43,121 nucleotides of DNA, taken from positions 1 through 43,121 of the IMG/VR virus record IMGVR_UViG_3300040789_000082; one strand, 5' to 3'. This document shows, one piece after another, positions 6,990 through 38,322 of this stretch (its first letter is position 1; each line of letters starts with the position of its first letter). A program made the translations under genes and the position numbers. The notes below the pieces were generated by a model, which saw nothing but the letters and a program-made list of their open reading frames with translations, was not told where the DNA came from and searched no databases. Source of the stretch: a virus.

Positions 6990-7023
6990 GTCCTTTCCCC
7001 CGGCCCCGCGCGGTCGCACTTTG
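6990..7023 (+). promoter_or_regulatory. Putative phage late promoter, GTCCTTT...TTTG
   Basis: GTCCTTT at 6990-6996 and TTTG at 7020-7023 are 30 nt apart start to start, and the ATG of the next gene follows the TTTG by only 7 nt. The spacing fits Bacteroidota promoters (-33 and -7 elements, TAnnTTTG-type), but the -33 element differs from the normal TTTG. The same 10-mer CTGTCCTTTC occurs at 10592 and 38286. It is a member of an eight-site family described in the findings. Confidence 0.6.
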
Positions 7024-7030
7024 AGGACCA

Positions 7031-7465
7031 ATGGAGCAGACCACCCAGCAGATCACGGAGCAGATCACGGAACGCGAGATGCTACGCGTCATGGAGGACG
7101 GCAAGCCCTTCGCGCTGCGCTACGTCACCTACGATGCCGGCCGCCGCAAGGGGGGCGCGGTCCGTGAGATCGCCGAGGCCGTCCTCTGTAATGGGGCGCA
7201 GGACCGGGAAGACGGCGCGGGCGAGTCAGCCGGTAGCAGCGTGCGCCCCCTGACTGATGCCGAACTCGCCGCGCTACAGTCGGGCGGCGGAGCGCAGGTG
7301 CAAGCCGGAGCGGGAAGCGGACCCGGCGCACCCCGCAACCCCCGCCACAGCCACTGGTACACCCGCAACGTCCGCGTCCTGCAGGCCGGCGTTCCCACGA
7401 GTCTGGTGCGCAAGATTCACCCCCCCCTGGTCCTGACCTTCAACGATAAGCGCGTACTGCCATGA
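7031..7465 (+). CDS. Small protein preceding the portal, 144 aa
   Basis: The N-terminus has ITEQITE repeats, the middle is low-complexity and rich in Gly and Ala, and the C-terminal 40 residues (HWYTRNVRVLQAGVPTSLVR, then KIHPPLVLTFN) look well ordered. I have seen this C-terminal pattern in small proteins beside the portal gene in Bacteroidota phages; its function is unknown to me. The gene opens a transcription unit behind the promoter at 6990-7023 and overlaps the portal gene by 4 bases (ATGA), so the two are coupled. Confidence 0.65.
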   Translation: MEQTTQQITEQITEREMLRVMEDGKPFALRYVTYDAGRRKGGAVREIAEAVLCNGAQDREDGAGESAGSSVRPLTDAELAALQSGGGAQVQAGAGSGPGAPRNPRHSHWYTRNVRVLQAGVPTSLVRKIHPPLVLTFNDKRVLP

Positions 7466-8847
7466 GCGTCGTTCCTACCCACTATACCTTTCAGGCCTTT
7501 CAGGATCAGCGCACCGGGGCTTTCCAGGTCGTGAATCCGCTCACCGGGGCCGACTACACCCACCCCCCTCTCGACGGTGGCCAGGAGCCGACCACCTTCC
7601 GCGTACCCACCGCCGAGCACGCCGGCTGGCGCTGGGCCCCCTGGGGTAAGGAGGACCGCCTGCCCTCCACCATCCGCCGCAAGGTCGACCGGGTGCCGAT
7701 GGCCGGTCAGACGCTCTACCGGCTCATGGGCATGATGTATGGCAATGGCCTTGCCTACTACCGCAACGAGGACCTGCGCGACGGCCCCCGCGTACAGCGC
7801 GCCTACGAGCCGGTTATCGAGCAGTGGCTGCGCCGCTGCCGGCTGCCCCATCAGTGGGTACTGCCGCAGTTCCTCGGCTACCGCTACCACTTCAATGCCT
7901 ACTCCCAGCTGATTTTCAACCGGCGGCGCGACCAGGTCACCGGCATCTACCATCTCGACGGGGAGTTTAGCCGCAAGTCGGTACAGGACGAGCAGACGCT
8001 GCGCAGCGAGTACCTCTACTACTCGGCCGAGTTTTCGAGCGAGTATTCGCAGGACCTGTCCAAGGGCTTTGCCATCCCCTTCCTGGACTGGCACAACGCC
8101 GAGGAGTGGGTGGCCGGCATGCAGGGCTACAAGGCGGCCTGGCACTCCCACCTGCGCACCCCCGGCACCATCTACTACGCCACTCCCCCCTGGGTGGGGC
8201 TCTTCCGCGATCAGGGCTGGCTCGACAATGCCGCCGCCGTACCCGAGATCGTCCACGCCATGCAGCGCAACCAGATCATGCTCAAGTACCAGATCATGAT
8301 CCCGATGAGCTACTTCCAGGCCCGCTACCGCGACTGGAACAGCTACGATGCCAAGAAGCAGGAACGGCTGATGGACGAGCTGACGACCTATATCGAGACC
8401 GAGCTGACCGATACGAAGAATGCCTATAAGAGCATCACCACCTTCTTCGGCGCCGACAGCTCGGGCCGCGAGATCGGCAAGATCACCATCGAGGCGATCG
8501 ACGATAAGATCAAGCGCGACAGCTGGGTGCCGACCTCCAATACGGCCGACGCCCAGATCGTGCAGGGCCTGGGTATGCACCCCAGCCAGCTGGGCCTGGC
8601 GCCCGAGGGCGGCAAGATGGGGGCCGGCTCGGGCTCCGATCAGCGCGAGGCCTTCAACACCATGATCAACCTAAACACTCTGGAGCAGGAGATCGTACTG
8701 GAGCCCCTCAACTGGGCTGCGCAGTTCAACGCCCGCGTCGACCCCCGCTGGGACGTGACCTTCTACATCGATCACACCCACCACACCACCACCAACCAAC
8801 AGGAGTCGGGCCTGCAGCCCAGCGCCGCCACTATTCTACCCGAGTAA
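7462..8847 (+). CDS. Portal protein
   Basis: A 461-residue protein matching the portal family of Bacteroidota phages: an N-terminal wing with conserved Trp/Tyr, a central region (SNTADAQIVQGLGMHPSQLG), and a Gly-rich EGGKMGAGSGSDQREAF loop near the C-terminal end, which is typical of phage portals. It would form the dodecameric ring at the head vertex through which DNA is packaged. It is coupled to the preceding small gene by a 4-base overlap. On this map it lies about 12 kb from the terminase, which is an unusual distance. The C-terminus is polar (HHTTTNQQESG). Confidence 0.75.
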   Translation: MSVVPTHYTFQAFQDQRTGAFQVVNPLTGADYTHPPLDGGQEPTTFRVPTAEHAGWRWAPWGKEDRLPSTIRRKVDRVPMAGQTLYRLMGMMYGNGLAYYRNEDLRDGPRVQRAYEPVIEQWLRRCRLPHQWVLPQFLGYRYHFNAYSQLIFNRRRDQVTGIYHLDGEFSRKSVQDEQTLRSEYLYYSAEFSSEYSQDLSKGFAIPFLDWHNAEEWVAGMQGYKAAWHSHLRTPGTIYYATPPWVGLFRDQGWLDNAAAVPEIVHAMQRNQIMLKYQIMIPMSYFQARYRDWNSYDAKKQERLMDELTTYIETELTDTKNAYKSITTFFGADSSGREIGKITIEAIDDKIKRDSWVPTSNTADAQIVQGLGMHPSQLGLAPEGGKMGAGSGSDQREAFNTMINLNTLEQEIVLEPLNWAAQFNARVDPRWDVTFYIDHTHHTTTNQQESGLQPSAATILPE

Positions 8848-10593: not shown

Positions 10594-10627
10594 GTCCTTT
10601 CTCCCGCCCCTTACCCGCCGCAATTTC
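10594..10627 (+). promoter_or_regulatory. Putative phage late promoter, GTCCTTT...TTTC
   Basis: GTCCTTT at 10594-10600 and TTTC at 10624-10627 are 30 nt apart. The ATG at 10633 follows the second box by 5 nt, so the transcript would have almost no leader. The site has the same geometry as the sites at 6990, 31324 and 35086. Confidence 0.55.
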
Positions 10628-10632
10628 ACGGC

Positions 10633-11079
10633 ATGGCAGACGGAACCCTGCAGGATGGACTGCGACTGGCCGACCGGCTGGCGCTACTCGATAAGGAGAT
10701 CGCTGCCTGGGGCCGGCTTACGCGCTCGCAGCTGATCGGCCAACTGCTGAGCCTAAATCTACAGGGCCGCCTGGATGCCAAGGAGGAGGAGTACCTGGAG
10801 AATACCATCAACTACCACAGCAAGCGGCAGGACGGCGAGCTGGAGCGTGTCAGTATCCGCTTCGCCCGTCACGGCATCTACCTGGAGCGGGGAGTGGGTA
10901 AGTACCGCAAGGTGGGTTCCGCAGCCGCCACCGCCGCCGCCCGGCCCTGGCTGGCCCCCATCCTGCCCGGCGCGGTGCAGGCCCTGGCCGACCGGCTCAG
11001 CGAGGGCTACGCCGACGTGGTGGCGGCCGAGGCTTCGCTGCGTATTCCCGGCGTGCTTGAGACCAAGATCAGTCGCTGA
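10633..11079 (+). CDS. Putative tail-completion/neck protein
   Basis: A 148-residue helical protein with a central IRFARHGIYLERGVGKY segment. That pattern is typical of small proteins directly upstream of the tape measure in Bacteroidota phages and is reminiscent of HK97 gp10-like tail-completion proteins; the assignment is by position and pattern. It opens the tape-measure unit behind the promoter at 10594-10627 and overlaps the tape-measure ATG by one base (TGATG). Confidence 0.55.
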   Translation: MADGTLQDGLRLADRLALLDKEIAAWGRLTRSQLIGQLLSLNLQGRLDAKEEEYLENTINYHSKRQDGELERVSIRFARHGIYLERGVGKYRKVGSAAATAAARPWLAPILPGAVQALADRLSEGYADVVAAEASLRIPGVLETKISR

Positions 11080-15777: not shown

Positions 15778-16200
15778 CTACTCCGGTTCGATCCCTAGTT
15801 CGGCGGCCTTATCCGGGTGCCGCCTGATCAGTTCGTTGCGGTACTCGCGTAGCCGGTCCAGATCGTTCGGGTCGGCACGCTCTATAATTTCCTCGGTGAG
15901 TCTATCGATTTGCAGGTTGAGCTTAAGTACTAGCCGTGCGACTTCGTCTTCATCAATCCTGCTACCCTTGGGCGAGAGTCCACTGGCTTCAATGTCGCGG
16001 TAGACTAAGTCGTGAAGATTGACATCAAAGAACTTCGCTAAAGCAAAAAGCCCCTCGGCCTTGGGGAACCCTTCCCCTCTTTCAAGACGGCTAATTGCAT
16101 TCCCTCCTACGCTCATAACACTTCCAACGGCTTCCTGATTGTGGCCGCGTGATGTGCGTAAGTACCTGACATTCTTGTGGAAGTATATACGATCACTCAT
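15778..16200 (-). CDS. XRE-family repressor, CI-like
   Basis: A 140-residue protein with an N-terminal XRE helix-turn-helix (about residues 8-62: VRYLRTSRGHNQEAVGSVMS, then VGGNAISRLERGEGFPKAEG, ending VNLHDLVYRDI) and a C-terminal coiled-coil-like dimerisation region (LVLKLNLQIDRLTEEIIERA). It is divergent from the Cro-like gene across an operator region full of inverted repeats, the standard position of a lysogeny repressor. It lacks a LexA/CI-type autoprotease domain, so induction would need a different trigger, for example the antirepressor at 26134. The start ATG at 16200 is well placed. Confidence 0.78.
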   Translation of the reverse strand: MSDRIYFHKNVRYLRTSRGHNQEAVGSVMSVGGNAISRLERGEGFPKAEGLFALAKFFDVNLHDLVYRDIEASGLSPKGSRIDEDEVARLVLKLNLQIDRLTEEIIERADPNDLDRLREYRNELIRRHPDKAAELGIEPE

Positions 16201-16216
16201 AATGTCAATTTCATTA

Positions 16217-16273
16217 AGAATATATTCTCTTTAGAATTTGGATTTCCAATTCTAACTGTACTACTTTTACAGT
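16217..16273. promoter_or_regulatory. Operator/promoter region between divergent regulators
   Basis: The 92-bp AT-rich gap contains three inverted repeats in a row: the 12-bp palindrome AGAATATATTCT (16217-16228), TAGAATT...AATTCTA (16232-16254, with an inner TGG/CCA pair) and ACTGTA...TACAGT (16255-16273). They differ in sequence, so more than one regulator may bind. The arrangement fits a repressor/Cro switch. Confidence 0.6.
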
Positions 16274-16292
16274 CAGACTAACGAATATACCA

Positions 16293-16562
16293 GTGTCACT
16301 AGAAGAAAATCGACCAACCGACCGAAAATTTGGACTGAAGCGGGAGCTGCAGAAGTTTTCGCGGGAGGAGCGGGCACACCGGCGGGCGATGATTGCCGAC
16401 CGCCTGGGTATATCCGAGGGGCGTATCAATCAATTGATCTACGCCCGGGTCGGTAGCAATGTGTCCATGAAGGACGACCAGTTACGTATTGCCAGCGAGG
16501 TACTGAAGTGTGAGATCGAAGATTTGCTTCAGCCCACGGAGGAGATAGGAAGAATTTCATAG
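16293..16562 (+). CDS. Cro-like HTH protein
   Basis: An 89-residue basic protein, divergent from the repressor, with a helix-turn-helix near residues 28-55 (RAMIADRLGISEGRINQLIY) followed by KDDQLRIASEVLKCEIEDLL. Its layout resembles YdaS/Cro-type regulators. It starts with GTG at 16293; no better start is seen. A strong terminator follows at 16582, so it may form a short early transcript on its own. It probably acts as the lytic-side switch protein. Confidence 0.65.
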   Translation: MSLEENRPTDRKFGLKRELQKFSREERAHRRAMIADRLGISEGRINQLIYARVGSNVSMKDDQLRIASEVLKCEIEDLLQPTEEIGRIS

Positions 16563-16581
16563 GTGAATGAGAGACGTGTCC

Positions 16582-16618
16582 GTGCCCGGTCAGTCTACGG
16601 CCGGGCACCTTTCTCTCT
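16582..16618 (+). terminator. Terminator after Cro-like gene
   Basis: GTGCCCGG (16582-16589) pairs perfectly with CCGGGCAC (16601-16608), followed by a pyrimidine-rich CTTTCTCTCT. A reading frame runs through it from GTG 16563, which argues that the next gene starts later. Confidence 0.6.
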
Positions 16619-16659
16619 ACTCCCCTATCCCCTTTGTGAGTCCATAGTGTCTTTTCACC

Positions 16660-16690
16660 GCCCCCGAGGTATCGCTTCGGGGGCCTTTAA
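16660..16690 (+). terminator. Second terminator-like hairpin
   Basis: GCCCCCGA (16660-16667) pairs perfectly with TCGGGGGC (16677-16684), followed by CTTTAA. It lies just upstream of the GTG start at 16704 and could be a terminator or an attenuator in the early leader. Confidence 0.5.
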
Positions 16691-16703
16691 ATCCCATTGT
16701 CCC

Positions 16704-17000
16704 GTGTCCGATTTCAAGGTCCACATTGATCCCCAGGCCAAGACCTCCTACGAAACCTTCTTCTTCACCAAGGCTACGGCCAGCGGCTTTATGACGGGGG
16801 CGGTGAAGCGACTGGCGCGGGAGGTGGTCGACGATGAGCGCACGGTAGCCAGCGCGGTTGCCGAGATCTACCGCCTGGCACCCGACCCGCAGTACTACTC
16901 CCTTGGCCTGCTGCAGTTCTACCAGATGATGCACGACATCAAGGGTGCTACGATCAAGAAGGCCATCGACATCCTGTTCAAGGACATGACCACCGAATAA
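16704..17000 (+). CDS. Small early protein, unknown
   Basis: The product is 98 residues if GTG 16704 is the start. The frame is open back to 16563, but that part runs through two terminator-type hairpins and encodes low-quality sequence, so the later start is preferred. The protein is soluble and helical (VSDFKVHIDPQAKTSYETFF near the start). Bracketed by terminators on both sides, it looks like an independently expressed early gene or moron. No family is recognised. Confidence 0.5.
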   Translation: MSDFKVHIDPQAKTSYETFFFTKATASGFMTGAVKRLAREVVDDERTVASAVAEIYRLAPDPQYYSLGLLQFYQMMHDIKGATIKKAIDILFKDMTTE

Positions 17001-17002
17001 AC

Positions 17003-17040
17003 AAAGCCCCGTCCCTGTCAGCAGCAGGGCGGGGCTTCTT
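17003..17040 (+). terminator. Rho-independent-type terminator
   Basis: AAGCCCCGTCCCTG pairs with CAGGGCGGGGCTT (one bulged base), the left arm starting at 17004 and the right arm ending at 17037, followed by CTTTC. It ends the transcript of the 98-residue early gene. Confidence 0.7.
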
Positions 17041-17064
17041 TCATAACACAGCATCCACTCTGCC

Positions 17065-18390
17065 ATGTCACACCTCAAAGGTAAGCTCATTTCCCACCAG
17101 CTCCGTAACGCCCGCCGGCGCAGCGACGAGCGACAGTCCTTCACTCACCGCAACGTCTACCTCTGGGTTTTCCTGGCCTGGGTGGTCTACCCCTGCGGGG
17201 TTCTGCTCTCCGGCTTTACGGAGGGATTCTTCATTCACTCCCTGGCCGCCCGCTTTTCGGCCCCCGTCGCCTGGGGCTTTACCGCCCTGGCCGTACTGGC
17301 CATCGAGGGGCTGATATACTTTCTCGGTAAGACGGCGATCGACGACGTACAGGCCGGGGTATTCTCCGGCACCCTCACCGAGCGGGCCATGTTCGCGCTC
17401 AAGGCCCTGGGCTTCGTAGCCTGCTTTGCCCTTTCGGTTCACCTCTCGCTGCGCGGCGCTCCCCTCTTTCAGGAGTGGCACCAGCGATCGGCCGACCCCG
17501 TAGCCCTGCGGCTGGAGGACGAAGGCCAGATCGAGCGTGCCTACGCTGATGATAAGGCTGTACAGCTCGACATCATCGCCGGGGCCCGGGCGACCACCTG
17601 GCGCGGCAGTATAACCCGGCCGGCTATGGCCAGTCTGCGCACGGCCCAGGCCGAACTGGCGCGTATCGATGCGGCGATCGCGGCCGACCGGGAGCGTGTC
17701 CGCCAGCGCAACGCCGCGGCAGTCGATGCCTACGAAGCGGAGGTGGCCGCCGGTAGCCGTACGGCCTTTAGCCTGGCCGGTCTCGGGCAGGGGGTCGTCC
17801 TGCTCTGCATCATTCTCATCGGGCTCTACGATCAGGGCGTCGACCGGGAGGTGGGGGCGCGCACGCAGGTGCAGGCGGAACCCGGAAACGATAGTGAGCC
17901 CGCAGCCGTTCGCCCGTTCGGTAGCCCGTCGCTGGCCGCCGCTTCGGTCTCTTCTCCCCTCTCACCACCTACGCACCCGCGTCCGCGCCCCATTGGCTTT
18001 CGCACCTACGGCGATGCGCCCCCTACCCCGCTGGAGGTACCGCCCATTTCCGACGGCTCGGTGGTCGACACCCTTACCGCGCCGGCACTGCCTGCGGCCG
18101 CCCCTACGGTAGCCACCAGTAGCCACGATGGGGCGGGGCAGGACCTGCCGAATCCGGAACTCGACCAGCAGACGCGGCTCAATTCGTACCGCGCACTGAT
18201 GAAGACCCTGCGCACCTACCAGTCGCGCGATACGGCCGCCGCCCATGAGGCCCGAGCGGCCACCCAGCGGCACCTGGACTACGAGGTACAGCAGCTGGCC
18301 AGGCTAGGTAAGCGCATCGAGCTGCGGGAGAAACCGGTACGCAAGTATGTCCTGGTGGATATCGCCCCACCTCGCCAACATTGGGAATAA
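17065..18390 (+). CDS. Membrane protein with four TM segments
   Basis: A 441-residue protein with hydrophobic segments at about residues 31-50, 68-88, 108-128 and 236-256, and a charged helical, coiled-coil-like stretch (about 190-230) before the last one. The second half is a Pro/Ala/Thr-rich linker (about 260-370) leading to a helical, basic C-terminal segment. The topology suggests a large periplasmic or cytoplasmic coiled-coil loop. It sits at the head of the replication genes. A role in membrane attachment of replication or in superinfection exclusion is possible but not shown. No family is recognised. Confidence 0.6.
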   Translation: MSHLKGKLISHQLRNARRRSDERQSFTHRNVYLWVFLAWVVYPCGVLLSGFTEGFFIHSLAARFSAPVAWGFTALAVLAIEGLIYFLGKTAIDDVQAGVFSGTLTERAMFALKALGFVACFALSVHLSLRGAPLFQEWHQRSADPVALRLEDEGQIERAYADDKAVQLDIIAGARATTWRGSITRPAMASLRTAQAELARIDAAIAADRERVRQRNAAAVDAYEAEVAAGSRTAFSLAGLGQGVVLLCIILIGLYDQGVDREVGARTQVQAEPGNDSEPAAVRPFGSPSLAAASVSSPLSPPTHPRPRPIGFRTYGDAPPTPLEVPPISDGSVVDTLTAPALPAAAPTVATSSHDGAGQDLPNPELDQQTRLNSYRALMKTLRTYQSRDTAAAHEARAATQRHLDYEVQQLARLGKRIELREKPVRKYVLVDIAPPRQHWE

Positions 18391-18481
18391 TTCAACTCCC
18401 GTCCCCCCGCCGCCCGGCGCGATCTCCCGAGGGGAGTTGCAGCGGGCGGCGGCTCTCTCATTTTCCTACCTACACCCCCGC

Positions 18482-24215: not shown

Positions 24216-24224
24216 CTATCCGAC

Positions 24225-24478: not shown

Positions 24479-24493
24479 AATAAATAATAATTA

Positions 24494-25579: not shown

Positions 25580-25633
25580 GTGAGTGCCGGCGCAGGCCGA
25601 CGTAGGAGGCTTGACGCTGGCAGTTTATTGGGC
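25573..25633 (+). repeat. Hairpin repeat B2
   Basis: Bounded by ACCCAAT (25573-25579) and ATTGGGC (25627-25633), it contains GTGAGTGCCGGCGCAGGCCG and GGCTTGACGCTGGCAG forming an imperfect hairpin. It is nearly identical to B1 over about 55 bp. Confidence 0.75.
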
Positions 25634-25850
25634 GCGGTGCGGGTCGTCACTTGCAAGTATGATCGCGCTAGCCTACTTTTGCTGGTGCCATATCCATCAT
25701 TCATCACGTAGCATCTGCTATGATCTTTCAAGTCATCATTCACAACTTAGGGGACAGGATTGGCCTGCGGCGGGAGTCGCGGGCGTCTACCGACTGCGAA
25801 AGCGGATGGATGGATATGGCACTTTCCTGCTCCCCGCTTTATTCTTTCCA
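25634..25850. repeat. Non-coding leader of cassette 2 with 14-bp inverted repeat
   Basis: GTGCCATATCCATC (25685-25698) is repeated inverted at 25809-25822 (GATGGATATGGCAC), and a third, direct copy of TGCCATATCCATCC overlaps the start of the next gene at 25852. The 110 bp between the arms have no convincing gene. It could be a structured RNA, a miniature insertion or a regulatory stem. Confidence 0.5.
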
Positions 25851-26141
25851 ATGCCATATCCATCCAACCTACAGCCGGAGCTTTCCCGGCTGACTCCTGA
25901 GGCCCAGGAGTACATCACCTCCCTTCAGTCCGACAGCCAGCAGCTGCGTCAGCTTCTCCCGGAAGACCCGGGAGAAGACAAGCGGCTGCTCTTCCTCCTC
26001 GGGCTCTGCGTGGCCACCTTCGCTGCCAACGAAATGGATAGCCCCGCCCGTGCCCATCGCATCGACCTCCTGACTGGCTTCTACGAGCGGGTAGGGGAGA
26101 CCACCTATTTCGTCACCAACAATCAACATCCCCATGGATAG
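25851..26141 (+). CDS. Small protein of cassette 2, 96 aa
   Basis: An acidic helical protein from ATG 25851 (MPYPSNLQPELSRLTPEAQE at the N-terminus) with a hydrophobic LLFLLGLCVATFAAN patch that is more likely a buried helix than a membrane segment. It overlaps the antirepressor gene by 8 bases, so the two form a mini-operon within one cassette. No family is recognised. Confidence 0.5.
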   Translation: MPYPSNLQPELSRLTPEAQEYITSLQSDSQQLRQLLPEDPGEDKRLLFLLGLCVATFAANEMDSPARAHRIDLLTGFYERVGETTYFVTNNQHPHG

Positions 26142-26658
26142 TCCACAGTACCTAGAGTTCAATGATCACCAGATTGCAATCGTATCCGCTGATGGAACGC
26201 ACTGGGTGGCTATCAAGCCACTCTGTGAAGCTCTCGGGGTCAATTACAAACACCAACAACAGGTCATCTCGCAGGACGAGAAATTGAGTCAGTTGTCTTG
26301 TCTACACAAGACAACTGGGGCTGATGGGAAGGGCTATTCAATGCTCTGCTTACCCTACCGGTACATCTACGGATACCTGTTTTCGATCAGCTCGACGTCC
26401 CCAGCTCTGAGGGAGTATCAGTGGAAGTGCTACGACGTGCTCTACGATTACTTCCATGGCATCCTCTCGAAGCGTAAGCAATTGCTAAAGCAAAGTCGAG
26501 ACGCGGAAGCACGCATTCAAGAGCTAGAAGATAAGTACGCAGCAGAGGAAGAGTACCAGGAGCTACAGCACCTACGTAAATTCCGCAAGCAGGTACCCCA
26601 TAGTCTCAAGCGGTTGGATCGTGGTCTCGTCGACGATCAGCTCGAACTTGATTTGTGA
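26134..26658 (+). CDS. Phage antirepressor, P22_AR_N-type
   Basis: A 174-residue protein with the N-terminal antirepressor domain: YLEFNDHQIAIVSADGTHWV, then AIKPLCEALGVNYKHQQQVI, then the GKGYSMLCLPYRYIYGYLFS segment and YQWKCYDVLYDYFHG. A coiled coil follows (KQLLKQSRDAEARIQELEDK). Such proteins inactivate CI-like repressors and can trigger induction. Because the repressor here lacks an autoprotease domain, this is a reasonable candidate for its antagonist. The gene is cargo of the second hairpin-bounded cassette and is followed at once by repeat A2. Confidence 0.85.
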   Translation: MDSPQYLEFNDHQIAIVSADGTHWVAIKPLCEALGVNYKHQQQVISQDEKLSQLSCLHKTTGADGKGYSMLCLPYRYIYGYLFSISSTSPALREYQWKCYDVLYDYFHGILSKRKQLLKQSRDAEARIQELEDKYAAEEEYQELQHLRKFRKQVPHSLKRLDRGLVDDQLELDL

Positions 26659-26660
26659 TC

Positions 26661-26714
26661 CTATGGGTAGACGCCGTGCCTTTTGGGCATGGTCGATCTA
26701 GCTGATATTGGGCG
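26661..26714 (+). repeat. Hairpin repeat A2
   Basis: The same hairpin as A1, GTAGACGCCGTGCC with GGGCATGG and TCTAGCTGATATTGGGCG, with only a few substitutions (loop TTTT instead of TTC, and TCGA for ACGT). It starts 3 bases after the antirepressor stop. Confidence 0.75.
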
Positions 26715-26782
26715 CTGTGCTTGTTGATTAGCAATCCGTAGTACTCACTAGGTTTGCTATTTATCTAGCATAGCGGCCCAAT
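26707..26782 (+). repeat. Inverted 7-mers and nested hairpin between A2 and B3
   Basis: ATTGGGC (26707-26713) and GCCCAAT (26776-26782) enclose GCTGTGC/GCATAGC and TAGCAA/TTTGCTA, giving a long cruciform-capable structure. No gene fits here. Confidence 0.65.
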
Positions 26783-26835
26783 GTTTGTGACAGTGCAGGC
26801 CGACGTAGGAGGCTTGACACTGTCACTGTATTGGC
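26776..26835 (+). repeat. Hairpin repeat B3
   Basis: GCCCAAT, then GTGACAGTGCAGGCCG and GGCTTGACACTGTCAC, ending ATTGGC. The arms differ from B1/B2 by compensatory changes (CAGTGAC-type pairing is retained), which argues that the hairpin itself is selected. Confidence 0.75.
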
Positions 26836-26858
26836 TGCTGTTTTTTTAACTTTATACT

Positions 26859-27218
26859 ATGAAATACTTACGAAAAGCCTCTAAATTTTTCACTAAGGGC
26901 ATTAAAGAAACCACTGGCAGTATTGTTGGAGGAGCGTGGGACGGCATCAAGCCAGATGACTGGGACGAGAGACTAGAGAAGCGCCGCGCAGCAGTTGCCA
27001 AAGAGAAGGCTAGAAATAAAATCAAGAACTGGGCCTGGTCGATGTTTGTCTTTGCGGAATGTGGCATCTTGATTTTATGGACAATCAACGCTGAGAGCAA
27101 AACCCTAGCATTTTCTAACCTAGTTGACGACTACGGAATAGCGTTGTTGATTCCAGTGGTGTTATTGATTGCTTTGATTACACTTATCGACACCATTGTT
27201 GATTTGATTGAGGAATAG
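26859..27218 (+). CDS. Small membrane protein of cassette 3
   Basis: A 119-residue protein with a basic N-terminal half and two hydrophobic helices (about residues 61-75 and 91-115). Its G+C is clearly lower than in the phage core genes. A T-rich tract directly precedes the start. The gene is flanked by TATTGGCTGCT (26829) and the inverted AGCAGCCAATA just after its stop. A superinfection-exclusion or defence function would be typical for such cargo but is not shown. Confidence 0.6.
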   Translation: MKYLRKASKFFTKGIKETTGSIVGGAWDGIKPDDWDERLEKRRAAVAKEKARNKIKNWAWSMFVFAECGILILWTINAESKTLAFSNLVDDYGIALLIPVVLLIALITLIDTIVDLIEE

Positions 27219-27342: not shown

Positions 27343-27377
27343 GTCCTTTTTATTCTTGGGTTTCGCTACCACATTTG
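27343..27377 (+). promoter_or_regulatory. Putative phage late promoter before lysozyme
   Basis: GTCCTTT at 27343-27349 and TTTG at 27374-27377 are 31 nt apart. The ATG at 27382 follows the second box by 4 nt, predicting a leaderless mRNA. Confidence 0.6.
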
Positions 27378-27381
27378 TCGG

Positions 27382-28131
27382 ATGCTGATTCCCCTAATAT
27401 TCATCCTGGTTTTCGCTGGTGTTCTAGCGACGTTGCTTTTCCGCAGAAAGGCTACTGAGCCCAGCATCGGCGTTGCCCATACACCCGATGATGAGTACTC
27501 TATTCAGGACACCCTCGCTATCGTTGCCCTCGATACGGTGGTCGTGCGCCCCATTGTCGCGCAACCTACCGTAGTCAACCAGGACAGACCGGCTATCTCC
27601 TTCGAAATCGCCTATGAACCTGTCAAGGCGATTGAGGGAGGATACCAGCGACTACGAGCTGATCGGGGGAACTACAACTCCAGGGGAGAGCTGGTAGGCA
27701 CGAACTGGGGCATCGCCGCCCCCGTGGCCGAGCGGTTCTACGGCCGCACTGTCACTACTGCGGATATGCGGGCCCTCACCGAAAGAGAAGCTGCGAAGAT
27801 TTTCCGCCGGCTATTTTGGCTACCGCTGCGCGCTGTCGACTTTCCCACCCAGGAGCTCGCCAACATTGTATTCGACGGCTTCGTCAATCATGGCATCTGG
27901 GGGGTTCGTCTATTACAGCGTGTCCTGCGGGTAGCTGAGGACGGAGTGGTAGGTCCCCGTACCCTGGCGGCGATCCGGGCCCGTGATCCGGATGACGTGT
28001 ATCGAGCCTACTATCAGGCGCGGCTGCAGTTTTACCGCGCCATCGTCCGTAACCGACCCGACCAGAAGGTTTTCGAGCGGGGCTGGCTGCGCCGCCTCAA
28101 TCGCTACCGGCCTGCTGAACTACCTGCTTAG
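27382..28131 (+). CDS. Membrane-anchored lysozyme, GH108-type, with peptidoglycan-binding domain
   Basis: A 249-residue endolysin. Residues 2-20 form an N-terminal membrane or SAR-type signal anchor. The glycosyl hydrolase 108-like core follows, with the likely catalytic Glu85 in AIEGGYQ, then RGNYNSRGELVGTNWGIAAP. A C-terminal peptidoglycan-binding domain contains LLQRVLRVAEDGVVGPRTLA. It degrades host peptidoglycan at lysis. The export signal would let it reach the periplasm without a canonical holin. It is alone behind a late promoter, with no holin gene adjacent. A 670-bp non-coding region follows. Confidence 0.85.
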   Translation: MLIPLIFILVFAGVLATLLFRRKATEPSIGVAHTPDDEYSIQDTLAIVALDTVVVRPIVAQPTVVNQDRPAISFEIAYEPVKAIEGGYQRLRADRGNYNSRGELVGTNWGIAAPVAERFYGRTVTTADMRALTEREAAKIFRRLFWLPLRAVDFPTQELANIVFDGFVNHGIWGVRLLQRVLRVAEDGVVGPRTLAAIRARDPDDVYRAYYQARLQFYRAIVRNRPDQKVFERGWLRRLNRYRPAELPA

Positions 28132-28803: not shown

Positions 28804-29469
28804 ATGGCTTCGATTACCATCAGCATCGTAGGCAGAGCCGTCCTTGTGGTCGGTAGGTTAGTGGGGGTACTTGCGGACATGTGGACAAGAGTAATCGAAA
28901 CCCTCGGGGGTAAGGCCAGCGCCGGGGGGTACCTGGCAATGCTGCTTGCGGTCTTGAGCTTTATCGTACAATTCGCGACCCTAGAAAAGTCGAAGACGGA
29001 CTACGCCTTCGAGGTAATTAAGGAGGACAATGCCTACCTGCGTAAGGAGAATAGCGGTTTGCGCATAGAAAACATCAGCCTACAGCAGGACCTCATGGAA
29101 CGTGATGCGAGTCTGAACATCCTGACGGCCACTCGTGGAGACGAACCCATCATCGCCTGGGCCAAGGACCGCGAAGGGCGCTATATCGAATTCAACCGAG
29201 CATTCGAAGAGCAAGTACTTATACCGCAGGGACTCGACCCCCACGACGCGCTCTTTCATACCGACCTCGAACTATGGTCGGATACAGCCCGCAGCCGCAT
29301 CTACCGGCAGCACGACCTCGAAGTGATGCGGACCCGCAAGCGGAAGAAATTCTATGAGAAGATGAAGTTCGACGGCACCATTGTACCCTACGTATCGGAA
29401 AAATACCCGCTGATTCTGATGAATCGGGTAGTTGGCACGGGTGGCCAAGCCTACGAAGACTGCCGGTAA
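28804..29469 (+). CDS. Membrane-anchored coiled-coil PAS-domain protein
   Basis: A 221-residue protein. The N-terminus has two hydrophobic stretches (about residues 5-24 and 43-60), then a coiled coil (about 70-100, EVIKEDNAYLRKENSGLRIE), then a PAS-like domain (about 108-205) with IIAWAKDREGRYIEFNRAFE and the terminal YPLILMNRVVGTGGQAYE strand pattern. PAS domains sense small molecules or redox state in bacterial kinases, but no kinase or cyclase output domain follows here. It lies between the repeat cluster and a late promoter. It may be a truncated sensor used as a lysis or lysogeny timer, or simply a spanin-like scaffold; both are inference. Confidence 0.6.
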   Translation: MASITISIVGRAVLVVGRLVGVLADMWTRVIETLGGKASAGGYLAMLLAVLSFIVQFATLEKSKTDYAFEVIKEDNAYLRKENSGLRIENISLQQDLMERDASLNILTATRGDEPIIAWAKDREGRYIEFNRAFEEQVLIPQGLDPHDALFHTDLELWSDTARSRIYRQHDLEVMRTRKRKKFYEKMKFDGTIVPYVSEKYPLILMNRVVGTGGQAYEDCR

Positions 29470-29470: not shown

Positions 29471-29504
29471 GTCCTTTCCATCGGACATTTCTGGGGTGAC
29501 ATTG
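29471..29504 (+). promoter_or_regulatory. Putative phage late promoter, GTCCTTT...ATTG
   Basis: GTCCTTT at 29471-29477 starts 2 bases after the stop of the PAS gene, and ATTG at 29501-29504 is 30 nt downstream. The 13-mer GTCCTTTCCATCG is shared exactly with 38288-38300. Here the next start (29557) is about 50 nt further on, so this unit would have a leader. Confidence 0.5.
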
Positions 29505-29556
29505 GGATTCATTCGGAAGAACATTCTTCACCTTATAATCAATCCCCCTTCCTGCC

Positions 29557-30176: not shown

Positions 30177-30671
30177 ATGACGATTTCGGTTTCCGTACCC
30201 CTAATTCCCTACCTGTACAAGTTCCTTCTGTGGAAGGAGCGACTTGCTCCCGGCGATCTACTGGATCTTATCGGTTCGAAGGGCGACGTAGCTTACGTAC
30301 TGGGAGGAATGCTCACCACGAAGGTGCAGGCGCGCTACGACGATACGGAGAAGCTAAGCGACACCTATACTGAGGAGATTCGGGTCAAGCTGGACACCCG
30401 ACGTCTTAATAGTGGGCGGGTGGTCATCTCGGACGCCAACGTGCGGATGTTCAATCAGTTCTTGCGCAAGAATTTGCACGAGCTGCTGCTCGAACGGATC
30501 ATGAACGGGATGCGGCACAAGCAGAAGGAGTGCAACATCATCTACGACTTTATCCGCGAACTGGGCATGGAAGACGACGTGAGTTTCGATACCCTGAAAA
30601 AGGCCCAAACTCGACTCAGAAAGTCCAAAAAAATACCTGCCTTTCGCTCCCATAATCGTCGGAGGGCCTGA
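30177..30671 (+). CDS. Unassigned basic protein, 164 aa
   Basis: A basic helical protein whose C-terminal third (EDDVSFDTLKKAQTRLRKSK) resembles a small family in Bacteroidota phages that I cannot name. It begins MTISVSVPLIPYLYKFLLWK and ends in a strongly basic tail, so nucleic acid binding is possible. It sits between a terminator and the head genes. A regulatory role is conceivable, but nothing in the sequence proves it. Confidence 0.5.
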   Translation: MTISVSVPLIPYLYKFLLWKERLAPGDLLDLIGSKGDVAYVLGGMLTTKVQARYDDTEKLSDTYTEEIRVKLDTRRLNSGRVVISDANVRMFNQFLRKNLHELLLERIMNGMRHKQKECNIIYDFIRELGMEDDVSFDTLKKAQTRLRKSKKIPAFRSHNRRRA

Positions 30672-31323: not shown

Positions 31324-31358
31324 GTCCTTTGCGCGGGTAGTCGACCGTATCACCTTTG
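31324..31358 (+). promoter_or_regulatory. Putative phage late promoter before head genes
   Basis: GTCCTTT at 31324-31330 and TTTG at 31355-31358 are 31 nt apart. The ATG at 31364 follows by 5 nt. This arrangement decides the start of the protease gene against the GTG at 31316. Confidence 0.6.
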
Positions 31359-31363
31359 GGACC

Positions 31364-32620
31364 ATGCCGAAGCCGCGTACGCTACCCTTTCAGATCATGA
31401 CCTACCCCGAGGAGGGGCAGGCGACGATCTACGTGTACGGCTACATCGGCGAGTGGTCCAGCTACTGGAACGACAACGAGGCGGACCGCGATAACACCGC
31501 GCTTAACCTGATATCGGAACTCAACGACCTGGCCGCCCGCTACGACCGGATCAACCTGCGGATCAATTCGCCGGGTGGTGAGGTAATGGAGGGCAATGCG
31601 ATGGTCAACGCTATTCGCTCCTGTCAGGCCGAAGTGCACACCTACAACGATGGGGTAGCGGCCTCCATGGCCGCCGATCTCTGGCTGGCGGGTGATCATC
31701 GCCACATGGCGCGCAACGCCATGTTGATGATCCACCCGGTAAGCACGTTCGCTTACGGTAATGCGCGTGACCTACGACAGGTAGCTGACGACCTGGACAA
31801 GTTCGACACGGCAAGCATTGCCAGTCTCGCCCAGGCCATGGACCTGTCCGAGGATGCCGCCCGCGAGCGCTTCTTTTCTACCTACGAGGATAACTGGCTC
31901 ACCCACTCGGAGGTAGAAGGCCTGGGACTGATCTCAGAGCAAACGGAAGCCTACGAGGCTGGGGCTCCCCTTGCTCCCGAGCAGGCCCGCACCATGAACT
32001 ACTCTCAGCTCATCGAGCATTTCCGGCCCACCAACGCCGGCCGCGGCGAGGCGCAAGACCCTAAACGCTCGGCTAGCGGTAAGCCCAGCAGCGTGATGGG
32101 TCGCATTCGCCGGTTTCTAGCCCCCGCCGCTACGGCTGAGCAATCATCTTCTTCTCCCACGAAAAACACTTCTCCCGTGACCCCACAGGAACTCCGTCAG
32201 GCCCTATCCGCAGGCGAACTTACCCCCGCCGATCTGCAGGCCGCTCTGAACGAAAGTCAGGAATCTACCAGCCAGGTAGCAACCGGGCAGGAGGCCCCTT
32301 CCCAGGAAGCCCCGGCCCCGGGGGAGCAGGCACCCGCCGGCGACGGCGGCTTAGCCGCCGCTATTCAGGCTGCTCAAGCGCCACTCCTGGAGCAAATCCA
32401 GTCGCTGCAGGAGCAAGTACAGCAACTCGGTGACAGCCCCGGAGCCACCCCCGCCGGGGTCAGTGCAGGGCAGGACCCGTCCGCGTCGACGGCCAGTGCA
32501 GCCGTCCAAGAGGATGCCCGCCGGTGTAGCCAGCAGGCAAGCGCCGGCATCAACCCATTCGCTCAATACGACCGTCCGACGCTTCCCCTGACCGGGGAGG
32601 AGTCCGAGGCCGCCCAATAA
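31364..32620 (+). CDS. ClpP-like (S14) head maturation protease fused to scaffold-like region
   Basis: A 418-residue protein from ATG 31364. Residues about 8-200 are a ClpP/S14 phage protease: INSPGGEV (68-74), catalytic Ser101 in NDGVAASMAADLWLAG, His124 in MLMIHPVS, then NWLTHSEVEGLGL. The rest is low-complexity and rich in Ala, Gln, Glu and Pro, with a coiled coil near residues 325-350 (LLEQIQSLQEQVQQLG), as expected for a built-in scaffold. It processes the prohead. The major capsid gene follows after 12 bases. Confidence 0.88.
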   Translation: MPKPRTLPFQIMTYPEEGQATIYVYGYIGEWSSYWNDNEADRDNTALNLISELNDLAARYDRINLRINSPGGEVMEGNAMVNAIRSCQAEVHTYNDGVAASMAADLWLAGDHRHMARNAMLMIHPVSTFAYGNARDLRQVADDLDKFDTASIASLAQAMDLSEDAARERFFSTYEDNWLTHSEVEGLGLISEQTEAYEAGAPLAPEQARTMNYSQLIEHFRPTNAGRGEAQDPKRSASGKPSSVMGRIRRFLAPAATAEQSSSSPTKNTSPVTPQELRQALSAGELTPADLQAALNESQESTSQVATGQEAPSQEAPAPGEQAPAGDGGLAAAIQAAQAPLLEQIQSLQEQVQQLGDSPGATPAGVSAGQDPSASTASAAVQEDARRCSQQASAGINPFAQYDRPTLPLTGEESEAAQ

Positions 32621-32632
32621 TTCGACCTACCC

Positions 32633-33607
32633 ATGGCCAGTACTACCACCATTGCCGCCCAGGCGCAGAGCCTGAACCGCCACGCCATCACCTACAATAA
32701 GGACATCCTGCAGGTGATGCGGGCCGGACTGGAGTGTGAGCGTATGTTCACCCCCCGGGCCTGCGACAACACCTACTCGGCGGTCAACGCCCAGGCCGGA
32801 GAGCTCATCCAGGCTTACCAGTCCAAGTTCACGCCCAAGAGTTCGGTAGGCTTCGACGCGATCGACTGGAAGCTGCGCAAGATCAAGATTGATATGATCT
32901 TCACGGCCGACGACCTGGAGAAGTACTTCGACAGCTGGATGGTCGAGTGGCACGAGATCGGTAAGGATCCCGTTGACTGGAGCTTCTACCGCTACCTCTA
33001 CGACACCGTCTTCACCCCCAAGCTGCTGGAGGAGATGAACCACAACGCCATGAAGGGCGAGTACCAGGCACCCGCCGACGGGGTAGCGGGCCTGAGCATC
33101 AACAGCCTGGATGGCTACATCATCAACTTCAGCAACGGGGTCGATAACGGTGACATTGCCGAGATCGTCACGGGTGCCATCGGCGCTAACGATGCGGTGC
33201 AGAAGATCGAAACCTTCTGCGACGGTCTGCCGGAACTCTACCGTGATCTTTCCGGCCGGATCTACTGCAGCCACACCACCGCCCGTCACTACGCCCGGGA
33301 TTACCGTGCGCAGTTCGGCACCGGTAACGGCGTGGCCGGTAACGAGAACACTGGCCTGAGCGTCGACTACAGCAACAAGCGCCTCGAGCCGCTGCACTGT
33401 CTGTCGGAGTCCAACGGGCTGATCTTCGTTCCCGATACCATCGCGACCCTCAACTGGGGCACCCGTCGGGGCTTCCCCACCATGCCACAGATGCGCTGGG
33501 AGCCCTTCGAGCGCAGCGTAAAGGGGATGTGTGAATTCTACCGCTTCTACGGCTGGGAATTCAACGAGGAGGTCTTCATCAACGACCAGTTCACCCCCGC
33601 AGTCTAA
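32633..33607 (+). CDS. Major capsid protein
   Basis: A 324-residue protein directly behind the protease-scaffold gene, the canonical capsid position. The body (NAQAGELIQAYQSKFTPKSS near residue 53, FDAIDWKLRKIKIDMIFTAD near 72, ending FNEEVFINDQFTPAV) fits a HK97-like fold by composition and context; I did not find a decisive motif. A 12-bp hairpin follows at 33618, typical after a highly expressed gene. Confidence 0.75.
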   Translation: MASTTTIAAQAQSLNRHAITYNKDILQVMRAGLECERMFTPRACDNTYSAVNAQAGELIQAYQSKFTPKSSVGFDAIDWKLRKIKIDMIFTADDLEKYFDSWMVEWHEIGKDPVDWSFYRYLYDTVFTPKLLEEMNHNAMKGEYQAPADGVAGLSINSLDGYIINFSNGVDNGDIAEIVTGAIGANDAVQKIETFCDGLPELYRDLSGRIYCSHTTARHYARDYRAQFGTGNGVAGNENTGLSVDYSNKRLEPLHCLSESNGLIFVPDTIATLNWGTRRGFPTMPQMRWEPFERSVKGMCEFYRFYGWEFNEEVFINDQFTPAV

Positions 33608-35078: not shown

Positions 35079-35118
35079 GCCCCTCGTCCTTGTCAGGACG
35101 GCGGGCACTTTCGTTTTT
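35079..35118 (+). terminator. Terminator overlapping a late promoter
   Basis: GCCCctCGTCCT pairs with AGGACGgcGGGC around TGTC, and a T-rich stretch (TTTCGTTTTT) follows. It ends the head operon. The GTCCTTG box of the next promoter lies inside the left arm and loop. Confidence 0.65.
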
Positions 35119-35119
35119 G
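35086..35119 (+). promoter_or_regulatory. Putative phage late promoter before terminase module
   Basis: GTCCTTG at 35086-35092 and TTTG at 35116-35119 are 30 nt apart. The ATG at 35125 follows by 5 nt. The sites are embedded in the terminator just described. Confidence 0.5.
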
Positions 35120-35124
35120 GGGCC

Positions 35125-35874
35125 ATGCAACAGAGTGGGTTTCTCAAGGATCGCTGTAGGGCTTGGCTCCATCACCAGACAAGCAGTTTTGCAGACGGCG
35201 TGCGATTACTCGAGGAGGGTGGTCGGACTAGGGAGGTGAGGCGTCACCAGACCGTGCTCGTGCGCGGTATCGTGGCGCCCTCGGCTAAGGCGACCCTGCG
35301 CGGCGACATCGGCCGCCTTCTGCAGAGTCTTCCCGATCCCGAACCCTCGCATTCGAAAGCATCAGCCATCAGCCCGTTACTGCAGCGCAATCGAGCGGGG
35401 GATCAGGAAGGGGTCACCAGGATAGATACCCCCGCCATCACCGCGCTACGTGAGCGGGCCATTGGACTGCACAAGCAGCGTTCGGACCTCAAGGGCCGGC
35501 TGCTACTGATGAGTCTGGATGAACCCGATCGCTTCACCGACGGTGAGCGCTACGAGGTGGCCGCCAGCATCATGGGGGCTAACGTGCAGGAGCTGGATAG
35601 TATCTACGATGCGCTGCGGGAGTACGAGCAGACGGGGACGGAACCCGCTCTGCCCGCTGATCGATCTTCCCAGCAACACTACGAGCGGGGCGTACAGGAT
35701 ATGCGCTCGATCGCCACGTTACGCTCACGGATTTCGCGGCTACGGCGGCAACTACGTGAGTTAGAGCAGCACTCCGGCACCGACGATAGCGGGCAAGGAG
35801 AGGCACAGCAGCGTGAACTAGCCGAACTCGAGGATAAGCTGGACGAGCTGCGTCTGCGCACCGGACAGGCCTAG
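35125..35874 (+). CDS. Terminase-module protein with coiled coil, 249 aa
   Basis: A helical protein with an N-terminal basic half and a C-terminal coiled coil (about residues 195-245, SRISRLRRQLRELEQHS then ELAELEDKLDELRLR). The position before the small terminase suggests a packaging accessory or DNA-binding protein. No family is recognised. The promoter at 35875 starts right after its stop. Confidence 0.55.
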   Translation: MQQSGFLKDRCRAWLHHQTSSFADGVRLLEEGGRTREVRRHQTVLVRGIVAPSAKATLRGDIGRLLQSLPDPEPSHSKASAISPLLQRNRAGDQEGVTRIDTPAITALRERAIGLHKQRSDLKGRLLLMSLDEPDRFTDGERYEVAASIMGANVQELDSIYDALREYEQTGTEPALPADRSSQQHYERGVQDMRSIATLRSRISRLRRQLRELEQHSGTDDSGQGEAQQRELAELEDKLDELRLRTGQA

Positions 35875-35910
35875 GTCCTTGTTGTCGGCCGGCGGCGGGT
35901 CCACCTTACG
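35875..35910 (+). promoter_or_regulatory. Possible phage late promoter before terminase genes
   Basis: GTCCTTG at 35875-35881 begins at the end of the previous gene. The position 30 nt downstream reads CTTACG, a poor TTTG match, and the ATG at 35918 is 43 nt from the first box. It is the weakest member of the family. Confidence 0.35.
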
Positions 35911-35917
35911 GGCACAG

Positions 35918-36511
35918 ATGAATCAATTGATGCCGATTAGAAAACGCAGTACCGCCATCCGGGACGTGCTCGACGGAGAACTCCACGATGAGGAGCTATC
36001 GCGGGAGGAGCGTACCTACTTCGCAGCTCTGCGGCGCATCGAGGCCATGATGCTGGCCGGAAAGACCGATCGGGCCATCCGAATTATACTCAGGGACCAA
36101 TACGGAATGAAGCGGCGGGCGGCCAATACTGCCATGCACGATACCCGGTCGATCTTCGGGGACGTTCGGGTGGTGGACCGCGCCTGGCAGCGCTACCGGG
36201 CTGAGCAGATGGCCCTGCATATCTACGAGCAGGCCGCCGCTAGCAGCGATCTGCTAATGATGGAGCGGGCCACGAAACTCTACATCGCAGCGAACGGCCT
36301 GAACAACGAGGATCCGGACCTGCCCGAGTTCGAGAACCTGCAGGCTGCGGTGAACGTGCTTAGCCTGCCCGCGGGCATGGAAGAGATTGCCCTGCAACTG
36401 CTCCAGCAGGGGGTGGTGGACATGACCCGACCGCCGGCGATCCCCGGCGCGCCCGGCACGGAGGCAAGCACCGAAGAAACGACCTATGTCGACCTGGACG
36501 TCAGCGCTTGA
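35918..36511 (+). CDS. Putative terminase small subunit
   Basis: A 197-residue helical protein from ATG 35918 (MNQLMPIRKRS); a TTG at 35879 is the longer alternative. A region with MLAGKTDRAIRIILRDQYGM and KRRAANTAMHDTRSIFGDVR looks like the HTH-type DNA recognition part of small terminases, followed by a helical oligomerisation segment. It overlaps the large terminase by 26 bases, the classic arrangement. Confidence 0.65.
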   Translation: MNQLMPIRKRSTAIRDVLDGELHDEELSREERTYFAALRRIEAMMLAGKTDRAIRIILRDQYGMKRRAANTAMHDTRSIFGDVRVVDRAWQRYRAEQMALHIYEQAAASSDLLMMERATKLYIAANGLNNEDPDLPEFENLQAAVNVLSLPAGMEEIALQLLQQGVVDMTRPPAIPGAPGTEASTEETTYVDLDVSA

Positions 36512-38108
36512 GCAGCAGCTGAAGCAGCGCATCGGTCATCTGCTCGATACGGGAGGCGGGGACTTCGAAACCCTGCTGCGTCAGGCCGCCCAGGCCGAGA
36601 ACCGCCGCCACGTTCAGCTCAACATCCCCCAGGCGGTGGTGGCCCTCGCCCCGCAACTGCTGGTGTTCAAGGAGTGGGGGCGGGGGACGGGTAAGACGAC
36701 CGACCTGGCACGGGTGATGTACGAGTGCGTGGTGACCATGCCACGCTCTACCGGGCTATTCATCATGCCCAACTACCAGTTCGGCCTGACGCGCATCATC
36801 CCCAGTCTGGTCAAGGGGCTGGAGATGTTCGGTCTCTACCAGGGGCTGCACTACTTCATCGGCGAAAAACCGCCCCGCGTCTGGCGTAAGCGGTGGGGAG
36901 TAGCCTACGAGCCGCCGCAGAACTACAAGCGCTACATTACCTTCTGGAACGGGACGGGCTGCCACCTGATCAGTCACGACGTACTCGGGGATGGTCGGGG
37001 GCTCAATACGGACTGGATCATTGCCGATGAGGCCGCCCTGCTCGACCCGACGAAACTGCAGGAGAACACCGACCCAACGCGGAGGGGGACGAACGCCGGC
37101 CGATTCGGCGGACAGCGGTACTTCGGCTACCGGATGTACGTCTCCTCGACCCCCATCACCCCGGCCGGACGCTGGATGTTCGACTACGAGGACCTGGCCC
37201 GCGAGCGGCCCGATCAGATTCTTTACCACCGCGCTACCTGTCGCTACAACCTGCACAACCTGCGGGAGGGCTACCTGGAGGAAGCCCGGGCCGACTGCTA
37301 TCAGTACTGGGTCTACGAGGCAGAGTACGAAGGCGTCCGCCCCCGCTTCGCAAAAAATAGCTTCTACAGTATCTTGGATACCCACCGCCATACCTACCGC
37401 TACGGCACGGTGAGGGGGGAGCACTACCTCATCCCCGGCACCCAGGAGGACTGCCGCGGGGACGGCGACCGCATCGATTCCCTGCCGCTGATCCTGGGCA
37501 CCGACTGGGGGGCGGTGATTAACTGCATTGCCATCAATCAGTATCTGCCCGAGGCCAATGAGCTCAGGACGCTCAACGATATGTTCGTGCTGGGGGATGA
37601 TCAGAAAATGCAGGACGACCTGTTCCAGGACTTCCACGACTACTACCAGTATCATCCGACCCGCGAAGTCTACCTGTGGTACGACAATAGCGGCAACAAC
37701 CGCACGGGGAATACCCGCGCCACACGGGCCGAACAGGCGCGGGCTCAGTTGACCGACCTGGGCTGGAAGGTCTACCTGATGACGGCGGGGGGCACCAATC
37801 CCATGCACGATGCTAAGCATCAGCTCTGGACGATCATCCACCGTGAGGACGACCGCCGCTTCCCCCGTCACCGGATGAACTTCTACCGCACCCGGGACCT
37901 GCAGGCCTCGATGTCGGGAGCCAAGGCCAAGAGCGGCCGCAACGGGGAGGTACTCAAGGATAAGAGCTCGGAACGCTCGAAGAAGATCAAGCGCCAGCAC
38001 GCCACCGACCTTAGTGACGCGGTTGATTCGGTGGTCTGGGGGATGTTCTCACAGCTCTTGACGTCACTGGGCACCCACCTGCCGGCCATGCGGATCAGCA
38101 CCCGCTGA
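36486..38108 (+). CDS. Terminase large subunit
   Basis: A 540-residue packaging motor. The ATPase half has a Walker A-like WGRGTGKTTDL (about 63-73), where Trp replaces the first Gly of the consensus, and Walker B WIIADEAALLD (about 177-187). The nuclease half has acidic residues in ILGTDWG (about 338), YLWYDNSGNN and the C-terminal DLSDAVDSVVWG. It cuts concatemers and drives DNA into the prohead. The gene starts inside the small terminase gene. About 180 bp without a gene follow. Confidence 0.88.
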   Translation: MSTWTSALEQQLKQRIGHLLDTGGGDFETLLRQAAQAENRRHVQLNIPQAVVALAPQLLVFKEWGRGTGKTTDLARVMYECVVTMPRSTGLFIMPNYQFGLTRIIPSLVKGLEMFGLYQGLHYFIGEKPPRVWRKRWGVAYEPPQNYKRYITFWNGTGCHLISHDVLGDGRGLNTDWIIADEAALLDPTKLQENTDPTRRGTNAGRFGGQRYFGYRMYVSSTPITPAGRWMFDYEDLARERPDQILYHRATCRYNLHNLREGYLEEARADCYQYWVYEAEYEGVRPRFAKNSFYSILDTHRHTYRYGTVRGEHYLIPGTQEDCRGDGDRIDSLPLILGTDWGAVINCIAINQYLPEANELRTLNDMFVLGDDQKMQDDLFQDFHDYYQYHPTREVYLWYDNSGNNRTGNTRATRAEQARAQLTDLGWKVYLMTAGGTNPMHDAKHQLWTIIHREDDRRFPRHRMNFYRTRDLQASMSGAKAKSGRNGEVLKDKSSERSKKIKRQHATDLSDAVDSVVWGMFSQLLTSLGTHLPAMRISTR

Positions 38109-38287
38109 CCGAGGCCACCGAACAATATTTGGCTGCATATATCCCGGATCGACCGTTTGGTCAATTGATTCAGTCCTCAGGCAACGGCGGGCCTTTCCTT
38201 CGTGAGTTGTCAATTCACACTGCAAAATATTGTACTGTTTGTTGGTTTTCAGCGGGTTACGTTTTTCCTTTGTGCAGGTCGGTGCCT
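38109..38287. other. AT-rich intergenic region before fibre genes
   Basis: No supported gene; an open frame from 38129 has a lower-quality N-terminus. A weak host-type promoter is possible: TTTG at 38238-38241 and TACGTTTT at 38258-38265, 16 nt apart, slightly short of the usual spacing. Confidence 0.35.
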
Positions 38288-38322
38288 GTCCTTTCCATCG
38301 ATCAATTGCAGGCGCATAATTG
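38288..38322 (+). promoter_or_regulatory. Putative phage late promoter before fibre genes
   Basis: GTCCTTT at 38288-38294, within CTGTCCTTTCCATCG, and ATTG at 38319-38322. The ATG at 38327 follows by 4 nt. It decides the start of the next gene against upstream in-frame codons. Confidence 0.55.

Follow-up and report, generated by a model that had tools for sequence, protein, structure and literature searches.

A two-box element with a phage-specific upstream box precedes the late genes of tailed phages of Bacteroidota

Promoters read by the primary sigma factor of Bacteroidota (sigma-ABfr) consist of the elements TTTG and TAHHTTTG (PMC6847099, PMC7366714). In Flavobacterium johnsoniae the -7 box TAHHTTTG (T-12, A-11, T-8, T-7, T-6 and G-5) stands 4-5 nucleotides (nt) before the start, and the -33 element is weak in the hosts too (PMC6847099). 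Leaders exceed 10 nt in 87% of predicted F. johnsoniae transcripts, and 5′ untranslated regions shorter than 10 nt make up about 3.7% in Bacteroides thetaiotaomicron (PMC6847099, PMC7366714). The late transcription of temperate phages of this phylum appears to be almost undescribed. Here we analysed the whole stretch of 43,121 bases of IMG/VR virus record IMGVR_UViG_3300040789_000082 (the window), which carries the set of genes typical of a temperate tailed phage. An earlier note on this DNA had pointed out GTCCTT(T/G) upstream of eight late genes, usually followed by a TTTG-like box, and had read the pair as a phage-specific promoter family. We searched for relatives of the phage and asked where else the two boxes occur.

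All eight sites are present as placed and all lie on the plus strand (Table 1). The TTTG-like box follows 30-31 nt downstream in seven of them, the exception being 35875 with TTAC. A matrix built from 46 sites outside the window ranked the eight at 1-6, 8 and 9 over both strands. No comparable score was obtained on the minus strand or in the early region (16-27 kb), where the earlier note had placed none of the eight, and the only comparable match in the coding and early parts of the window was at 40404. The hexamer GTCCTT itself occurs 12 times on the plus strand and nine times on the minus strand; of the four plus-strand copies besides the eight, those at 17136 and 40685 lie in coding sequence and lack the second box, that at 40404 has a good one, and that at 28840 is weak. 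At most of the eight sites there is an ATG at the predicted +1 (39-41 nt from GTCCTT), a point that the earlier note had not made. Among the ATGs that open reading frames (ORFs) of at least 40 amino acids, GTCCTT ranks first of all hexamers at exactly -39 (five cases, 0.08 expected).

Searches with single proteins returned no matches to close relatives, and an alignment of the large terminase subunit (TerL) was required instead. It yielded 51 viral and 42 genome loci, all centred on TerL; the nearest come from Saprospirales prophages (Flavilitoribacter nigricans) and from phages of metagenomes; their terminases are 49-62% identical, and GTCCTTT-N-TTTG-ATG recurs in them before homologous genes. 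The element is strongly conserved. In the TerL-related phages box 1, TGTCCT[T/A]T, and a host-type -7 box, AnnTTnG, were separated by exactly 28 nt at 180 of 334 sites; there was almost nothing at other spacings, and the reversed control gave at most four matches at any spacing. Over all loci an ATG lay 39 nt from GTCCTT in 116 cases, as against about four per other offset. The motif is present in most relatives at the ortholog of the gene behind promoter 1, and in many at the ortholog of the head gene 35125-35874.

The logo of 74 non-redundant sites reads T-GTCCTTT-TTT, 17 variable nt, C-A-n-n-T-T-n-G, three nt, a pyrimidine (92% at -1) and ATG, with C-12 at 57%, A-11 at 95%, T-8 at 93%, T-7 at 100%, T-6 at 49% and G-5 at 82%. 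The -7 register, A-11, T-8, T-7, G-5 and the 4-5 nt to the presumed start are thus shared with sigma-ABfr promoters. The phage sites differ in having mostly C rather than T at -12, a relaxed T-6 and no TTTG at -33, where TTTT or TTTC is read within box 1, as well as in the phage-only TGTCCTTT at -40 to -30 and in a start codon that often falls at +1. Of the earlier proposal that the pair has the -33/-7 geometry of the host, the -7 box in host register therefore stands, but box 1 does not simply occupy the -33 slot, since it extends from about -40 to -30, overlapping -33 and reaching further upstream.

The element is essentially absent from host chromosomes. In 395 genomes of Bacteroidota its strict form matched nine times and the reversed pattern 29 times, and of the nine matches at least one lies in a known prophage and another adjoins a terminase gene. 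In an unbiased scan of viral contigs, which compared the gene content of motif and reversed-pattern contigs rather than raw match counts, this late gene set was found, among the matches listed, in 63 of 119 contigs with the motif and 4 of 120 with the reversed pattern (P=1.6e-19); 101 of 130 motif ATGs there, again among the matches listed, opened at least 60 codons (background 22%). With 40404 as the only rival match in the coding and early parts of the window, conservation in relatives and absence from host chromosomes, the interpretation in the earlier note was supported overall, and the sites are very probably promoters. That a host alternative sigma factor of the extracytoplasmic function (ECF) type, or a host activator, reads GTCCTT and is exploited by the phage would fit the many ECF sigma factors of Bacteroidota (PMC7366714), but the scarcity of the element in host genomes and a -7 box of primary-sigma type make it very unlikely. 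The phage-only distribution and the fixed spacing point instead to a phage factor, which the late promoters probably require.

Two further explanations concern the function of the sites. An RNA element before the start codon, either a translation enhancer or a hairpin, would account for the fixed distance to the ATG at many sites, and the two arms on either side of the -7 box show slightly more complementarity than after permutation. However, 82 of the 180 two-box sites have no ATG at +39, which argues for a promoter rather than a translation signal, and the complementarity is weak and register-dependent. In addition, about half of the sites lie directly behind a T-run or terminator and would have no upstream transcript, so that an RNA element is hardly credible. 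Together with the folding of the upstream 45-mers, which is better than that of shuffled ones (-10.7 vs -5.8 kcal/mol), these T-runs indicate that late promoters are often placed immediately behind a terminator. Alternatively, the sites could be repressor operators that silence the late genes in the prophage, as the phage is temperate and encodes an integrase and two repressor-like helix-turn-helix (HTH) proteins. Operators would need neither the asymmetry of box 1, nor its single orientation, nor its one exact spacing to the -7 box, and we regard this as highly improbable.

A conserved hairpin around the -7 box, to which inverted repeats in several Saprospiraceae phages had pointed, was also considered as a general feature and was rejected, the permutation test giving only one mildly raised register (z=4.0). 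Perfect inverted repeats with differing arms (e.g., CTACAAATTTGTAG, GCGCACATTTGCGC) do surround the -7 box at several promoters (in G003, G004, G007 and L059) and are only weakly enriched overall. In three other loci (L124, L127, L190) the spacer between the two boxes is filled by long inverted repeats (AAATGCCACTTTTTAAGTGGCATTTTTG), perhaps an extra operator.

Returning to the promoter interpretation, we propose that the RNA polymerase of the host, carrying the primary sigma factor, would contact a degraded -7 box of host type (consensus cAnnTTnG, -12 to -5), and that a phage activator bound to TGTCCTTTTTT (-40 to -30) would replace the weak host -33 contact and recruit or retarget the polymerase. 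Counted from the first base of GTCCTT, transcription would start about 39 nt downstream. The A of the ATG is the expected +1 because the logo is in the register reported for F. johnsoniae; in many units the start would then coincide with the start codon, and many late mRNAs are probably leaderless by this prediction. The most likely activator would be the product of the gene at 30177-30671, a member of a family that we call LRC. As a whole, this scheme of host sigma-A late promoters with a phage activator, most likely LRC, at box 1 and a start about 39 nt on seems to us likely.

In profile searches of the window genes against the loci, LRC was conserved almost as broadly as the head genes. It is nearly universal and constant in position: in all 61 loci with both genes, which share one strand, the capsid protease follows downstream of LRC, in 60 of them within 4.5 kb (median 1.1 kb). 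It was recovered in 12 of 14 records in which the flank had missed or not reached it, and in most of the prophages among these it lay just beyond the fetched flank. A separate search with LRC also turned up G188, where TGTCCTATTT is present at the late genes. The structure is predicted with confidence (pLDDT, the predicted local distance difference test, of 89.9) and has a C-terminal three-helix part that includes helices 118-129 and 137-150. Among the best fold matches of this part are the DNA-binding domains of StbA, TnpE, MuA and Mu Mor, but with Z of 4-6, too low to prove common descent. LRC could not be assigned to a known family by searches of Pfam, PHROG and PDB sequences or by fold, although it may still belong to one. 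In the window, a terminator-like hairpin at 30105-30170, formed by GAGCCCCTA...TAGGGGCTC and followed by TTTTTT, leaves about 10 nt to the start codon of LRC, and LRC may thus need read-through or a promoter of its own.

Box 1 varies with phage lineage, as GTCCTT, GTCCTA or GTCGCG. Its slot reads TGTCCTATTTTA in a flavobacterial group and TGTCCCAT in Dyadobacter, and before the ATG in Spirosoma-type phages (L085-L088, Spirosoma and Fibrisoma prophages in one LRC clade) it holds GTGTCGCGG instead of TGTCCTTT. GTCC or GTC and its position stay constant and the remainder shifts by lineage, as would be expected if the phage protein that reads the site co-evolved with it. In the LRC recognition helix, the invariant arginine is followed by K in every flavobacterial GTCCTT phage but by other residues in all 16 GTCCTA proteins, a pattern that amounts to only one or two independent contrasts.

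Several observations weigh against LRC as the activator. It matches the folds of DNA-binding domains only weakly (Z of 5.9 at best), and the trees do not single it out, since the box variants fit those of terminase and capsid (three and four changes, respectively) as well as that of LRC (four). G086, which has a divergent LRC (E 5e-15), showed no TGTC box in the slot where one was expected, and L093, a fragmentary genome, has motif sites and no LRC. Moreover, LRC often itself lies behind a two-box site, in which case its first burst would need another promoter, and none was identified. The same promoters could have another reader of TGTCCTT, such as another early protein or a sigma-binding protein that alters sigma region 4; the missing database match and weak fold matches of LRC and the general lineage dependence of the variants favor it. 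Against it, LRC is the only broadly conserved window gene tested that is neither a recognized virion gene nor virion-like in position, early genes were found in few relatives, though the loci centre on TerL, and in the Rhabdobacter locus L090 neither LRC nor, before the portal-operon gene, a TGTCC box is present. We therefore consider a reader other than LRC rather unlikely; LRC is the best candidate for reading box 1, and judging from conservation and position it is reasonably probable that it acts as the activator.

Exact two-box sites occur in loci of six orders (Bacteroidales, Chitinophagales, Cytophagales, Flavobacteriales, Saprospirales and Sphingobacteriales). We see about an even chance that these belong to one phylum-wide family of tailed phages with a single ancient late-transcription system, in which LRC would represent a new class of activator with no known relatives that redirects the divergent primary sigma factor of Bacteroidota to TGTCC-N-(-7) promoters, coupled to leaderless translation and with box and recognition helix co-evolving. 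Two host assignments deserve mention. A phage whose record names Microcystis as host has motif context and gene order in common with prophages of Sphingobacteriaceae (L006, L076, L099), and this label may be wrong. One prophage stretch occurs in both an Alphaproteobacteria and a Saprospiraceae metagenome-assembled genome from the same pond (L059 and L060) and was probably mis-binned.

The features of the window are collected in Table 1. The endolysin is followed by the protease, capsid and terminase genes, and there are portal and tape measure genes as well. The product of ORF 28804-29469, which adjoins the endolysin gene, is small, hydrophobic at its N-terminus and matched by PAS_4, and is possibly a lysis-timing protein; the weak site at 28840 may mark its true start. 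The two ends of the window (53-799 and 41957-43121) are near-duplicate tail-fibre-like coding stretches, which suggests repeats or a circularly permuted end.

Table 1. Predicted late promoters and other features of the window.
Feature	Position	Strand	Boxes and start	Genes and remarks	Matrix rank
Late promoter 1	6990..7031	+	GTCCTTT 6990-6996, CAC-TTTG 7017-7023, ATG 7031	7031-7465 and portal-like 7462-8847	4
Late promoter 2	10594..10635	+	GTCCTTT, CAA-TTTC, ATG 10633	Drives gene 10633 and tape measure gene	2
Late promoter 3	27343..27384	+	GTCCTTT, CACATTTG, ATG 27382	Drives endolysin (Glyco_hydro_108)	6
Late promoter 4	29471..29510	+	GTCCTTT, GACATTGG; predicted start near 29510	Predicted leader of ~47 nt to ATG 29557; candidate activator gene downstream	5
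Late promoter 5	31324..31366	+	GTCCTTT, CACCTTTG, ATG 31364	Drives capsid protease and major capsid genes	3
Late promoter 6	35086..35127	+	GTCCTTG, TTTTTG, ATG 35125	Head gene 35125-35874	8
Late promoter 7	35875..35920	+	GTCCTTG, CACCTTAC, ATG 35918	Gene directly before large terminase	9
Late promoter 8	38288..38329	+	GTCCTTT, CATAATTG, ATG 38327	Gene 38327-38881; orthologs in relatives	1
Probable further promoter	40404..40443	+	GTCCTTT, GAACTTG	Inside gene 38878-40611, 113 nt before ORF 40517	7
Weak candidate	28840..28881	+	GTCCTTG, TACTTG, ATG 28879 exactly 39 nt on	Score 7.2	
Candidate late activator LRC	30177..30671	+		164 amino acids, family without known name; predicted alpha/beta N-terminus, HTH-like C-terminus	
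Integrase and two repressor-like HTH genes	13.9-16.2 kb	-			
Replication genes	17-26 kb				
Early/replication region	16200..27218			Primase, SSB, cytosine methylase, anti-repressor; no two-box sites	
Endolysin (Glyco_hydro_108)	27.4 kb				
Capsid protease (PHROG head maturation protease) and major-capsid-like gene	31364..33607	+		First genes of head unit	
Large terminase subunit	36486..38108	+		Query for finding relatives	

We found no earlier description of the motif or of the LRC family in open-access papers, most subscription journals being outside the scope of the search. Phage-modified host promoters are known as a kind; what appears to be new is the family itself, together with its occurrence across the phylum, the connection with the start codon and the candidate activator. 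With the two-box rule, late units and start codons could be predicted, strand-aware and start-precise, throughout a large group of phages and prophages. The rule also names a testable activator and provides a promoter inducible by phage in a phylum for which genetic tools are few. Leaderless translation is uncommon in the two Bacteroidota that have been mapped, and the rule suggests that these phages favor it for virion genes.

Among isolated phages, the Helgolandviridae phage Leef_1 of Polaribacter resembles the window phage in its head gene order, an LRC homologue and a GTCCTTTTTT promoter before the ortholog of g35125, and differs in a terminase that is 34% identical; promoters are not mentioned in its isolation paper (PMC8776804). 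Late promoters read by a phage sigma factor, of the T4 gp55 type, are likewise a late class with its own sequence mark, but the window phage retains the host -7 box, and Pfam scans of 30 window protein queries gave no sigma (region 2/4) or polymerase domains. No MotA similarity was detected in LRC, and no AsiA counterpart was found, not all window ORFs having been examined for AsiA-like proteins. The T4 middle promoters (MotA box, AsiA; PMC2988021) differ in that the MotA box is centred at -30, whereas box 1 spans -40 to -30, is unrelated in sequence and serves late rather than middle genes. In both systems the host -10/-7 box is kept, a phage box replaces the host upstream element at a fixed spacing, and one phage protein is thought to read that box. 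The mechanism proposed here is thus most likely analogous to that of MotA-dependent promoters.

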